Shown: positions 15,075 through 19,470 of the stretch, piece by piece
Layout: each line of letters opens with the position of its first letter
Position numbering within the stretch: the stretch's first letter is position 1
Origin: Natranaerobius thermophilus JW/NM-WN-LF
GTDB lineage: Bacteria; Bacillota; Natranaerobiia; Natranaerobiales; Natranaerobiaceae
Direction of reading: 5' to 3'
Assembly: GCF_000020005.1 (NCBI RefSeq)
Contig: NC_010718.1
Location: 1,679,001 to 1,743,000, forward strand
DNA: 64,000 nt
Notes under the pieces: generated by a model
Database searches by the model: none
Seen by the model: only the letters and a program-made list of their open reading frames with translations
What the model was told of the DNA's origin: nothing
Made by a program: the position numbers and the translations under genes

Positions 15075-16667
15075 TTAGCGTCGCTTTAAACGCATAGTTC
15101 GGTAGTCGTAAGGTTCTTCATGGGCACCAACTAATTCACTACTGAACCTAACAAAGATATACCCATCACCATTAGGGTGACTGACACTAGTGAAACCTCC
15201 TGAGTTTTTTGAGGCCTCAATTGGCCAGCTAATAGTTTCTTGCCAAGTTTGTCCTCGATTTTCGGATGTGTATATTCTGGCATTTTGGTCTTCCATTGTA
15301 GTTCCTTCTGCCAATGTGCCAATTCCCCAAATATCGCTAAACTGCCAATAAACATAAGCTGGAGCCGGTAAACGAAAATCTTTACTAATATTTTCTGGGT
15401 TATCCTTATCTACGGAGCTAATAAAATTTTGACCATAGCCCCAAAGAGGATTATCTGATCCCCATATGTATTGGTCTTGTGAAAATAGTAATCCTAACGT
15501 TCGGTAATCTTGATTTCCTTCATTAGGTGAATCAGCTCCTAAAATTGCTTCCCATGTGTCACCATCATCAGTTGATTCCCACCACTCAATTTCATTATCC
15601 AAGTCTCCTGTGGTGGCAATCCAATTACCACTGTAAGGGTCAACTTGTACAGAATGCCAATGACGGATATCATCACCGGTCCTAGTCAAAACTTGTTCCC
15701 AATTCCTTCCGTCATCTGTTGACTTATATAAACTAATTTCGCCATCTGGACCAGTAAAACTAGGATATTCACCAAAAATTATTGTACCAGTTTCTGAGTT
15801 CTGATGAATAGAATCAAAAGCTCGCCACCTAACAATATCCGTTAATACTGTCTCAAAACTTTTGCCATCATCAGTACTCCTTAGAACATTCCCTTCACTT
15901 GTTGTAATTAATAATGAGCCATCCATTGTATAGAACATAGATTGTACTAGTTTATCTTCAAAGGTAGCTTTCTTAATCCAACTACCATAATCCCCACTAT
16001 CCTTATTCTTATAGATTGCATCCCCTCTAGATGCAAAGACTTTGGAAGATTGTCGGTCTACAGCCATAACATCAAATTGTACAGGTCTGATTTCATTAAA
16101 AACAGGTTGATGTTCTGTTGTACTGTTAATATCTATTTCTCCTCCAACAATCATTTGAATATCTACAGTAGCAGCCAAAGACCGATAATAAATTCTTTCT
16201 GGTTCATTATTGATTGTAATAGCATCCCCAGGTTTAATTTCAAAAATCTTTGATTGATTATCCAGACTCTCCTTTGAATCTATAAAACTCTCATCTATAG
16301 AGATTTCTACAGGTATTTCTAAATCGTTGTTTTGAATAGTAACAGAACCGAATTCCTCTTCATCAATTGTATATGATTGTTCTGTGATATTTGCTTCAAG
16401 ATTTTTAGTATAAGATACTTCATTATTTTTATCCTTTACTTGTATATTTTTCTCAGAGAAATCACATTTATGTAAACTGTTTGTTGTACCTGTTATAAGT
16501 CGGTAAAAAGGTCGTTGATATAGTGATATAGCTCCATTAGTTAACTTAGCCATTTCATAGGATTTAATTTCATTTTCCGTGTCTGTTGTGGAAATAACTG
16601 TATTAATAGGTACAGTTATAATAAGGGATACTAATAAAAAAAATAAGTATTTAGATGGCTTGTCCAA
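15075..16667 (-). CDS. Secreted Asp-box (BNR) repeat protein
   Basis: 530 residues with an N-terminal signal peptide (about 1-27), no lipobox. Residues after about 200 carry at least four Asp-box repeats: STDDGKSFE, STDDGRNWE, STDDGDTWE and SENRGQTWQ. These mark beta-propellers such as sialidases, sortilin-like proteins and photosystem-assembly factors. No sialidase RIP motif or catalytic Tyr/Glu pattern is evident, so binding rather than catalysis is possible. The TTG start follows AAAGGAGG. It seems to be a single gene with its own promoter. Function unknown. Confidence 0.75.
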   Translation of the reverse strand: MDKPSKYLFFLLVSLIITVPINTVISTTDTENEIKSYEMAKLTNGAISLYQRPFYRLITGTTNSLHKCDFSEKNIQVKDKNNEVSYTKNLEANITEQSYTIDEEEFGSVTIQNNDLEIPVEISIDESFIDSKESLDNQSKIFEIKPGDAITINNEPERIYYRSLAATVDIQMIVGGEIDINSTTEHQPVFNEIRPVQFDVMAVDRQSSKVFASRGDAIYKNKDSGDYGSWIKKATFEDKLVQSMFYTMDGSLLITTSEGNVLRSTDDGKSFETVLTDIVRWRAFDSIHQNSETGTIIFGEYPSFTGPDGEISLYKSTDDGRNWEQVLTRTGDDIRHWHSVQVDPYSGNWIATTGDLDNEIEWWESTDDGDTWEAILGADSPNEGNQDYRTLGLLFSQDQYIWGSDNPLWGYGQNFISSVDKDNPENISKDFRLPAPAYVYWQFSDIWGIGTLAEGTTMEDQNARIYTSENRGQTWQETISWPIEASKNSGGFTSVSHPNGDGYIFVRFSSELVGAHEEPYDYRTMRLKRR

Positions 16668-16718
16668 TTTTAATACCTCCTTTTACATTTATTGTATTTA
16701 TTAGCAAATTCACAATAA

Positions 16719-16747
16719 ATATTACATTAATATACTTTTATTGACAA
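16719..16747 (-). promoter_or_regulatory. Candidate promoter of the Asp-box protein gene
   Basis: On the minus strand TTGTCA (16742-16747) and TAATAT (16719-16724) are 17 bases apart, about 50 bases before the start. The -35 lies in a palindrome TTGACA-N10-TGTCAA (16741-16762), which could be an operator. Confidence 0.5.
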
Positions 16748-16819
16748 GTTTAAGTATGTCAACATTTGGGGTAATTAGATATAGTTTTTTGAGTTAAACT
16801 AAAAACAGGGGTGAGTACC

Positions 16820-16984
16820 ATGATGAACATGATGAATACAAGTAAAGTTGTAATTGCATTAGGTTCTATCGTTTCAGGTGTCGGTAAAAAACTGGGCGGT
16901 AAACTTGGTGCTGGCCTTGTAGGATTTGGTCTGGCCCACATTGTGTTAGGTATGCTTGATAAAGCCAGATCACCTTGGCGTTAA
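16820..16984 (+). CDS. Small glycine-rich hydrophobic protein, 54 residues
   Basis: A short frame starts MMNMMNTSKVV and ends DKARSPWR. The middle (about 9-46) is glycine-rich and hydrophobic with two Lys pairs, and could be one amphipathic membrane helix hairpin. GGGGTGAG (16808-16815) is a ribosome site 4 bases before the first ATG (16820) and 7 before the second (16823). A strong hairpin follows at once. It is the only plus-strand gene for several kb. I do not recognise it; the composition recalls small spore or membrane-associated peptides, but that is only a comparison. Confidence 0.6.
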   Translation: MMNMMNTSKVVIALGSIVSGVGKKLGGKLGAGLVGFGLAHIVLGMLDKARSPWR

Positions 16985-16995
16985 AAATCAATGGT

Positions 16996-17015
16996 TCCGG
17001 GGTTTTAACCCCGGA
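16996..17015 (+). terminator. GC-rich hairpin after the 54-residue gene
   Basis: TCCGGGGTT (16996-17004) pairs with AACCCCGGA (17007-17015). There is no T run, so it may be a transcript-end stabiliser or a factor-dependent stop rather than a classic terminator. Confidence 0.5.
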
Positions 17016-17063
17016 CTTACATATTAAATGTAGTATTTATCGGTACTCACCCCATTTAAATAT

Positions 17064-17237
17064 TTAGACTACATTATTATTTTGCTTTCTCACGATAATT
17101 GTTCCACTTTTATTGATACGACTTTTTAAGAAGTTATATTTTTTACATGCTTTATTGTAAGAAAGTCCGGATTCAATTACTCTTTCTCTTGAACCAAGTC
17201 GTCCTAATAATACCAACTCCCATTTCGCTTTACTCAA
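17064..17237 (-). CDS. Small basic protein, 57 residues, unrecognised
   Basis: A TTG start at 17237 lies just after a GGGGGGAGAAAGG ribosome site. The product begins MSKAKWELVLLGRLGS and has the basic segment CKKYNFLKSRINKSG, then ends KQNNNVV. The pattern (W-E-L-V-L-L-G-R-L; S-Y-N-K-A-C) suggests a small helix-turn-helix-like or RNA-binding fold, but I cannot name a family. Its 5' side faces the end of the group II intron 100 bases away. The strong ribosome site argues that it is translated. Confidence 0.5.
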   Translation of the reverse strand: MSKAKWELVLLGRLGSRERVIESGLSYNKACKKYNFLKSRINKSGTIIVRKQNNNVV

Positions 17238-17387
17238 CCTTTCTCCCCCCTCGATTAAACTAAAATTAAGTTAATTTATTATATGAATACATTGGCTTTT
17301 TCGAGAAGTATAAAAAGCAAAAAATAAAAAAAGTTAATCGAGTAGGTAGAAGCCACAGTAATTAGCTGTGGCTTCGTTCCTCTCACA

Positions 17388-17418
17388 GAACCGTGCTTAC
17401 GGGCCACGTACACGGCTC
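17388..17418 (-). ncRNA. Group II intron domain V
   Basis: An 8-bp lower helix GAGCCGTG/CACGGTTC contains the catalytic AGC triad, followed by a two-base AG bulge and a short apical helix TACG/CGTA. The total is 31 bases, slightly less than the usual 34, because the apical part is short. Confidence 0.75.
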
Positions 17419-17432
17419 CTAGTAGACCTCGA

Positions 17433-18701
17433 TCACTTTCTAAAGTGATGCAAAATACCAACTTGATAGGTACTAATATTAATTAGACCTATCTCGTCAA
17501 ACCACTTATTGGGTAGTGCTAAACTTATGAGAGGACTTGATGAGTTTCTCCATTTATTCATGGAGATTTTCTCAAATTCCCCTTTGTAGCCTTTTCTGCG
17601 AAGAGTTTTGTGTAGTTGTTTCCAACTTTTCCATTCTCGCATTTTCTTCATCCTAAGTCTTCTTCTAATCCATTTCATTAAGTTCTCAAATTGTTTCTTA
17701 CAATTGGCTATTCGGAAGTAATTTGCCCATCCTCTTAATACTGGATTTAGCTCTTTTATGATTTCGGATAGATTTCTACCATGATTTCTTGGTGTAAGAG
17801 TTCTGACTTTTTCTTTGAATTTCTGTATCTTTTCAGGCTGGATGGATATGTTTTGACTCCTTATGATAACTCCTAGGTAGGGAACACCTTTGCGGTCATT
17901 TGTTATGTGAGTTTTCTCTTTATTAACTGTTAGTTTTAATTCGTCTTCTAATATTTCAGTAGCTATATCTTTATATCTTTTCGCTTGTCTTGGTGTGTAG
18001 GCGAATATTAAAATATCATCGGCATATCTTACTATTCGGATATTGCGACTCTTCATTTCTTTATCAAATCTGTCTAGGTAAATGTTGGTTAGTAGTGGTG
18101 ATATCACTCCACCTTGAGGGCTCCCTATTTCTGTGTCTTCTATGGCTCCATCTTCCATTACTCCGGACTTCAAAAACTTCTTTATTAATTTGAGAACACT
18201 TCCATCACTAACTTTCTTGGCTACTTCTTCGATAATCAACTCATGGTTTAATTTATCAAAGCATTTAGATAGGTCCATATCTACTACATGTCTTAGATTG
18301 TATTTATTAATGAACTGTTCTGATTTAGCTATTGCTTTGTGACATGAGCGATTAGGCCTGTATCCGTAGCTTGACGGGTGGAAGTCTGGATCAAAAATCG
18401 GTTGAAGTATATTTAAGGTTGCTTGTTGGACTACCCTGTCTTTTACGGTTGGAATCCCTAATGGGCGAGTACTTCCATCTGGTTTGGGTATCTTAACTCG
18501 CCTCACAGGTTGTGGTTTGTATGCGCCAATTTTAAGGTCATGATGAAGGGTTTCCAGATTTTCTTCTAGGTTGGAGCCATAAGCCTCCACGGTTACCTGG
18601 TCTATGCCGGGTTTACCTTTGTTAGCTCTGACCCTGCGGTAGGCGTCTTCTAGATTCTTTTTGGAATAAATCTTGTCTATTAAACTGTACCATTTCTTCA
18701 T
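17433..18701 (-). CDS. ltrA: Group II intron reverse transcriptase/maturase
   Basis: 422 residues. Reverse transcriptase blocks are visible in order: IPKPDGSTRPLGIPTVKDR, YGYRPNRSCHKAI, DMDLSKCFDKLNH, GSPQGGVISPLLTNIYL and catalytic RYADDILIF. The maturase X domain follows (LNPVLRGWANYFR). There is no C-terminal HNH endonuclease, as usual for class C. It helps the intron splice and inserts it by reverse transcription. ATG at 18701 follows AAGGTG at 5 bases; an in-frame GTG at 18710 overlaps that site. The frame is intact, so the element could still be active. Confidence 0.93.
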   Translation of the reverse strand: MKKWYSLIDKIYSKKNLEDAYRRVRANKGKPGIDQVTVEAYGSNLEENLETLHHDLKIGAYKPQPVRRVKIPKPDGSTRPLGIPTVKDRVVQQATLNILQPIFDPDFHPSSYGYRPNRSCHKAIAKSEQFINKYNLRHVVDMDLSKCFDKLNHELIIEEVAKKVSDGSVLKLIKKFLKSGVMEDGAIEDTEIGSPQGGVISPLLTNIYLDRFDKEMKSRNIRIVRYADDILIFAYTPRQAKRYKDIATEILEDELKLTVNKEKTHITNDRKGVPYLGVIIRSQNISIQPEKIQKFKEKVRTLTPRNHGRNLSEIIKELNPVLRGWANYFRIANCKKQFENLMKWIRRRLRMKKMREWKSWKQLHKTLRRKGYKGEFEKISMNKWRNSSSPLISLALPNKWFDEIGLINISTYQVGILHHFRK

Positions 18702-19442
18702 CAATTGCACCTTCTTTCGCTGTGTGCCTTCCCTCTTTCTACACTTTTAGTTGTGGTTTCTTTGAACGTGCTTAACGGTGTCTCTAGCTCTTTGGCAATC
18801 TTACCTATCAGGGTACGCTCTACTTCCACTAGGCGGACGGTAAAGCAAGTAAGCTCGTCACCACCTGACTTTCCGTTCCCTTTAGCATTTCAGCTTCAGT
18901 TTTCTTCCTACCTAAAGTGTCTACTCGAGTTCTTGCTACACTCTTTGGTCTACTTTCACCCCTTCACACTACATAATTCCCCTTTCGGTCATTATGCACC
19001 ACTACAACCAGGTGTAGTGTCCTTTCGGTTTTATCCTCCAGACTGTTACCAGCTTTCTTTGGCCGAAAGTTCTTCACTACTACGGGTTCATCTGCCTCCT
19101 GCACTGCTTTAGTTAAAACTCATGTTTCCACTTGTCTTAACTTTACTTGTCGTCACAAGACAATACAGGTATCTCCCCGGTTAAGTCTGCTTGCCTGAAT
19201 TTGAACGCATCCGTCCTAACCTTTTAGGTTATCCAGCTTTCGGGCTTTCCCATAATTTGCAAGGTTACCCACCTAAAAGGCCATCCTCGGTTTGTTCTCA
19301 CTATGTTCCAAATTCCCCCTTCAGCTTCCTTCAGACTCCACCGTCACCGGTGACGCCCTTGCCTTATGGTTGTCTTCCTGCTGGTTAGGTGACAGGGTTT
19401 CTTTCAACCCATCGGCGCGGCAGGCATGCCGGGCAAACAAAT

Positions 19443-19470
19443 AAAAAAGGCCCCGTTTATGGAGCCTTTT
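19443..19470 (-). terminator. Terminator used as the intron insertion site
   Basis: On the minus strand AAAAGGCTCC pairs with GGGGCCTTTT (one G-T pair), then TTATTT. It ends the small membrane-protein gene above it; the intron begins only a few bases after the T run. Confidence 0.85.

Follow-up and report, generated by a model that had tools for sequence, protein, structure and literature searches.

An exact 12-bp inverted repeat encloses one of two tiny, oppositely oriented open reading frames (ORFs) in the 64,000-nt stretch of Natranaerobius thermophilus JW/NM-WN-LF DNA analyzed here (the window). What does such a repeat do, and are the two ORFs genes? An earlier note on this DNA had suggested a toxin-antitoxin pair, a small membrane peptide with its regulator, or a spore peptide.

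Two small ORFs and their surroundings

Both ORFs have the claimed lengths and strands, 54 aa on the plus strand and 57 aa on the minus strand, and both carry the ribosome sites attributed to them: GGGGTG lies 6 nt 5' of the ATG at 16820, and the TTG start of the 57-aa ORF is preceded by GGGGGGAG. The repeat is likewise exact, with GGGGTGAGTACC at 16808–16819 on the plus strand and its inverted copy at 17042–17053. The description of the site as gene-poor holds for a short stretch but not beyond it: the end of a group II intron lies about 100 bp past the 57-aa ORF. The features of the locus are as follows.

16748–16777, plus strand: candidate sigma-F-like promoter, GTTTA-N15-GGGGTAATTA, 52 nt before the ATG, matching 11 of 12 consensus positions
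16808–16819, plus strand: 5' arm of the predicted long-range helix, the Shine-Dalgarno region (GGGGUGAGUACC)
16820–16984, plus strand: gene for the 54-aa protein, Gly-rich, with two predicted helices and the motif ..GFGLAHIVLGxLD.., of an uncurated Bacillota family
16996–17015, plus strand: conserved GC hairpin of the 3' UTR (TCCGGGGTTTTAACCCCGGA), perfect, between the stop codon and the right arm, covarying in 20 homologues
17042–17053, plus strand: 3' arm of the predicted long-range helix, anti-Shine-Dalgarno (GGUACUCACCCC)
17064–17237, minus strand: gene for the 57-aa basic protein, the convergent neighbour, with a 51% identical convergent homologue in a genome of the same family (G001)
17337–19440, minus strand: group II intron (RF00029 at 17337–17420, RF02001 at 19186–19353, reverse transcriptase at 17433–18710)

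The intron sits just behind a terminator hairpin at about 19435–19466. In two other genomes, putative group II intron 3' ends also lie, antisense, within about 10 nt of the stop codon of the gene of the 54-aa family (L013:1380-1471 and L008:1260-1490), and introns may have landed repeatedly at the terminator that follows such genes. On the other side of the locus, 15075–16667 (minus strand) encodes a divergent, secreted-looking protein of 530 aa with BNR/sortilin-type repeats that score below curated cut-offs. G001 lacks this gene at the syntenic position, which is occupied by a BON-type protein.

The repeat arms lie at the two ends of one gene

The left arm is the Shine-Dalgarno (SD) sequence of the 54-aa gene, and the right arm, 222 nt away, falls within what is predicted to be that gene's 3' UTR. 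Across the genome (3.19 Mb in three contigs, of which the window's contig comprises 3,165,557 bases), GGGGTGAGTACC occurs in these two exact copies and in no others. It forms the only exact 12-bp inverted repeat of the window with arms 30 to 300 nt apart. Dinucleotide shuffles (n = 30) contained 3.6 such repeats on average, never one with 7 or more G/C. The chance of finding a 12-mer complementary to the SD region within 300 nt 3' of the stop codon was 4/5,000.

The hairpin at 16996–17015 has no U tract on the plus strand, and terminator calling found none in the window. At the gathering score, Rfam 15 returned only group II introns and tRNAs, with no known RNA family for the panhandle that the two arms would form. 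A hidden minus-strand ORF behind the right arm was considered and rejected, none being conserved on reading the window and locus L003.

Both ORFs are conserved, but over very different ranges

The earlier note had named a lack of conservation, with stop codons in relatives, as the outcome that would speak against the two peptides. In tblastn-type searches, both ORFs proved to be conserved, and a related genus keeps both arms, the intergenic hairpin and both ORFs. Homologues of the 54-aa protein were 71% identical in G001, 43% identical in G002 (a genome of the same order) and about 45 to 60% identical elsewhere. Between the window and G001, changes in the 54-aa gene fell 15, 13 and 32 times at codon positions 1, 2 and 3, a third-position bias. 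Judged by these comparisons, the 54-aa ORF is a real gene.

A family profile built from 15 rows matched 130 of 398 Bacillota genomes (122 without weak matches), nearly always in small open frames. Members are Gly-rich, two-helix proteins of 50 to 65 aa, found in about one third of the Bacillota genomes sampled, with the consensus MKxxTTSWxVxGLGAxVxGxG...GAGIxGFGLAHIVLGxLDMFRPxVR. GTDB genomes held at least 297 family loci, 80 of them named; Syntrophaceticus, Desulfotruncus, Thermoanaerobacterium, Fervidicola and many Paenibacillus are among the carriers. In Paenibacillus, the homologue has a fixed gene neighbourhood, whose members we take from their sequences to be rodZ-like, yajQ-like and pgsA-like. 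Presence is patchy inside one order, in 10 of 20 genomes.

No profile in Pfam, NCBIfam, PHROGs, PADLOC or PDB matched the family above curated cut-offs. No mention of it was found in the open-access literature, a search that cannot prove the family undescribed. AlphaFold placed helices at residues 3–25 and 27–49 in a helical hairpin (mean pLDDT, 76). The suggestion of a small membrane peptide fits both the sequence and this model, from which the protein is probably a membrane hairpin.

The 57-aa ORF is, from the same kind of comparison, also a real gene, specific to the window's family and present in two genomes. Its sole credible homologue, in G001, occupies the same convergent place with 51% identity and in-frame conservation. 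Beyond G001, nothing other than chance matches was found in the 398 genomes or in viral contigs. Being lineage-specific, the 57-aa gene cannot be a general partner of the 54-aa family, and it is probably not part of the RNA device described below.

These distributions do not support the proposed toxin-antitoxin pair. Only within one bacterial family are the two ORFs found side by side, neither protein matches PADLOC, and the 54-aa family was absent from the plasmids and phages searched, with four weaker matches in viral contigs. Membership of the 54-aa gene in a toxin-antitoxin family is not supported by this comparison.

Pairing of the SD sequence with the 3' UTR is conserved by compensatory change

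The corresponding arms of G001 read GGGGTGAGTGCC and GGTACTCACCTC. Both changes preserve pairing, as G-U, in the plus-strand RNA, and the helix is extended to 15 bp. Family genes were surveyed in sets of 102, later 176 and 198. Distant members have the same design: an SD arm GGGGGUGAAUGC, the start codon, the ORF, the stop codon, a GC hairpin, a short linker and an arm GCAUUCACCCCC. The helix spans 12 bp in the window and 11 to 17 bp in relatives, and the two arms change in step (GAGUAC/GUACUC in the window, GAAUAC/GUAUUC in L103 and GAACACC/GGUGUUU in L277).

Twenty homologous transcripts from several families were aligned with MAFFT, blind to structure, and from this alignment RNAalifold by itself predicted both the SD:3'UTR helix and the hairpin. 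Pairing was kept in 91.9% of 420 cells; 11 of the 21 pairs showed two-sided changes, and 29 cells were doubly changed. None of 500 shuffles reached any of the observed pairing values, and sliding the alignment by one to three columns lowered pairing to 38–54%. The automatic register was wrong for some members (L084, L098, L258, L217, and L075 or L088), whose arms were instead taken from the sequence itself and from the structure-blind alignment. L084, L088, L098 and L258 are related, which means that the cell counts of the 20 rows are not independent events; the types of compensatory change nevertheless arise in separate lineages. A composite of the arms only (17 rows) was 96.6% paired, with two-sided changes in 6 of 12 pairs and no shuffle of 500 reaching it, but this is the weaker test because its register was chosen for pairing.

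Within the helix, 39 cells were G-U and 5 were A-C. This excess argues that what is conserved is the plus-strand RNA, and not a DNA site or the minus strand. When whole transcripts were folded by partition function, the SD core was paired in 20 of 20 with a probability of 0.98 to 1.00, mostly with the 3' arm. Minimum free energies gave z-scores of -5.0 for the window and -5.3 for G001. In L096, L206 and L263, and by eye in L075, the terminator follows the arm and does not precede it; there, the arm thus lies inside the mRNA. Separately, folding of 16800–17020, which lacks the 3' arm, predicted that the SD sequence would pair inside the ORF, recalling the metastable hairpins of aapA3.

The strong helix is confined to part of the family

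A general screen showed a modest excess of pairing: SD:3'UTR complementarity over 110 nt reached p ≤ 0.01 in 7.1% of family genes versus 2.5% of 244 neighbour genes. A null based on the 3' UTRs of other genes was too conservative because relatives share arms, and it was replaced by shuffles and neighbour genes. The strong form of the helix is found in one branch (the families labelled f29 and f54 and a few others) and in the window's family. Elsewhere in the family, an anti-SD sequence within 16 nt of the stop codon scored at least 16 in 25% of genes versus 4.6% of shuffles. L101 illustrates this shorter form, directly behind the stop codon (GCAGGAGGUG with CAUCUCCUGC). In another branch, L184 and L162 have 11 to 12 bp of SD:anti-SD pairing (GGAGGUGUUUAC with GUAAACACCUC) two nucleotides past the stop. 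Among the few genomes covered from the window's order, the next relative, G002, has neither type of arm, but the end of a group II intron now lies at the stop codon of its gene.

Many family genes carry sigma-F-type promoters

Promoters were scored with the motif GYWTA-N14-16-GGNNANAHTR, which we take to be the sigma-F consensus of B. subtilis. Sites with at least 10 of 12 matches, and a -10 element starting 26 to 36 nt before the start codon, preceded 40% of 166 family genes, as opposed to 3.1% in shuffled and 4.2% in reverse-complement controls. At 11 or more of 12 matches, the values were 31.5% for the family and 3.1% for neighbour genes. The family sites show a clear GCATA...GGAAANAATA pattern. 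Of the six sigma-factor motifs compared upstream of the family, sigma-A, sigma-E, sigma-K and sigma-H were without comparable excess. In C. difficile, sigma-F promoters are distinguished from sigma-G promoters by a G upstream of the -10 element (PMC3789822).

The family also follows Spo0A. It was present in 120 of 342 genomes with a strong Spo0A match and in 2 of 56 without one (p = 2e-7, uncorrected for phylogeny). These sequence patterns make forespore expression of the family likely, and our best guess is that it encodes a small membrane protein of the forespore.

In the window itself, the canonical slot about 30 nt 5' of the ATG scores lower than the site at 16748–16777; a sigma-A-like site (TTCACA-N16-TATACT) lies at 16709–16736, and the sigma-F score in G001 is 9 of 12. 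N. thermophilus has been reported to be non-sporogenous, yet it keeps sporulation genes (PMC3533761). Because of that report, the forespore step may no longer operate in the window's species, and forespore expression there is uncertain. For the family as such, the spore peptide of the earlier note is supported by the constant spacing of the sigma-F-type promoters and by how strongly family presence goes together with Spo0A.

A self-silencing mRNA is the preferred reading

With a probability of roughly 0.74, we read the locus from these comparisons as encoding a self-silencing mRNA for a small, mostly forespore, membrane protein, whose SD sequence would be hidden by pairing of the 5' and 3' ends. 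The leader of the 54-aa mRNA would carry the SD arm, and the GC hairpin and then the anti-SD arm would follow the stop codon. Once transcribed by RNA polymerase, the 3' arm would pair with the SD sequence in the cell, closing a panhandle, blocking 30S binding and lowering translation. Synthesis of the protein would then be limited to nascent mRNA, to mRNA trimmed at its 3' end, or to times when some trigger opened the helix. Repression need not be strong because the SD sequence could be translated before the 3' arm exists. In most of the family, transcription by sigma-F would be combined with pairing that limits or times the synthesis of a two-helix protein, presumably located in the membrane of the developing spore. 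The sigma-F slot would place the start of transcription approximately where the SD arm begins, and the helix would therefore join both ends of the mRNA.

An extension of this reading is more tentative, and in its full breadth we consider it unlikely: a phylum-wide set of forespore proteins on panhandle mRNAs, made early by sigma-F and silent until a developmental cue or 3' processing, might act during spore formation or germination, either as a timer or as a stored message.

Pairing may instead mainly protect the mRNA ends, or, as in icaR, direct an RNase III cleavage from which decay begins, with the effect on ribosomes being secondary. The panhandle would include the predicted 5' end, and the icaR pairing both blocks the SD sequence and creates an RNase III substrate (PMC3868564). 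However, the conserved part corresponds exactly to the segment between the SD core and the start codon, and protecting the ends would not by itself require this. We regard this alternative as possible but rather unlikely.

It is improbable that the gene encodes a type I toxin-like, membrane-toxic peptide, with a full-length mRNA kept inert by 5'-3' pairing and activated by 3' trimming, and with an antisense RNA as the other half of the pair, a role that the 3' end of the convergent 57-aa transcript might fill. The small hydrophobic peptide, an SD sequence blocked by the 3' end, as in the logic of AapA3 and AapA1 (PMC6733600, PMC8167048), and the patchy presence within the order noted above (10/20) would all suit such a system. 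Against it stand a single chromosomal gene conserved over the phylum, fixed synteny in Paenibacillus, the lack of plasmid and phage copies, a convergent partner conserved in two genomes only, and the sigma-F promoters of the family. Inspection of sequences, which may miss antisense RNAs, revealed no conserved antisense gene, the convergent partner being limited to two genomes.

On the minus strand, 17042–17053 reads as a second copy of the SD arm; it would fall in the 3' UTR of the 57-aa gene and could pair with the anti-SD arm. Within the window's family, this copy could free the SD sequence as an anti-anti-SD and so couple the two small genes. In G001, the convergent order and the shared sequence are kept, and the intergenic hairpin, read on the 57-aa strand, makes a good terminator that leaves the SD copy within the 57-aa transcript. 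Such complementarity is, however, an automatic consequence of convergence, and the 57-aa gene is missing from all other helix-bearing genomes, making this coupling distinctly improbable.

Paired DNA sites of a regulator, or the terminal repeats of a small mobile element, are hardly credible and were rejected, in spite of the exact inverted copies 222 bp apart, on the orthologous position in other species, compensatory two-sided arm changes with G-U but not A-C exchanges, and the presence of only two copies in the genome.

Comparison with known systems

Self-silencing through an SD-hiding pairing of 5' and 3' UTRs has so far been known from a few single mRNAs and from type I toxins. New here is covariation support across several Bacillota orders, tied to an unnamed, widespread small-protein family with forespore-type promoters. 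The locus points to an unannotated sporulation-associated protein and lends itself to tests of long-range translational silencing. It is also an example of how what looks like a palindrome may turn out to be both ends of a single message.

In the icaR mRNA of Staphylococcus aureus, an anti-SD in the 3' UTR pairs with the mRNA's own SD sequence, and this has been shown to block initiation and feed RNase III (PMC3868564). From its sequence, the 54-aa gene resembles icaR in that part of its 3' UTR is complementary to its own SD sequence, over 12 bp in the window. However, icaR is a regulator gene that uses a 7-nt motif in a long 3' UTR, whereas the pairing here covers 11 to 17 bp, lies 30 to 60 nt past the stop codon with a hairpin in front of it, and is conserved across orders in an unrelated family of small proteins.

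The full-length mRNAs of the type I toxin systems aapA/isoA and hok/sok are inert, with the 3' end covering the SD region (PMC6733600, PMC8167048). A short hydrophobic peptide and a similarly covered SD region are predicted here as well, but no antisense antitoxin was found, and the family is chromosomal, phylum-wide, not on plasmids and preceded by a sigma-F-type promoter. The sigG leader of Bacillus subtilis belongs to a forespore mRNA transcribed by sigma-F, with a ribosome site occluded by RNA structure (PMC5942855). The 54-aa gene is predicted to share the forespore-type message and the occluded ribosome site, through a long-range helix to the 3' UTR as opposed to the local 5-bp leader hairpin of sigG, with its two- to four-fold effect. 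By analogy, our best reading is that the 54-aa mRNA would work like the icaR or the hok and aapA mRNAs while being unrelated to them.
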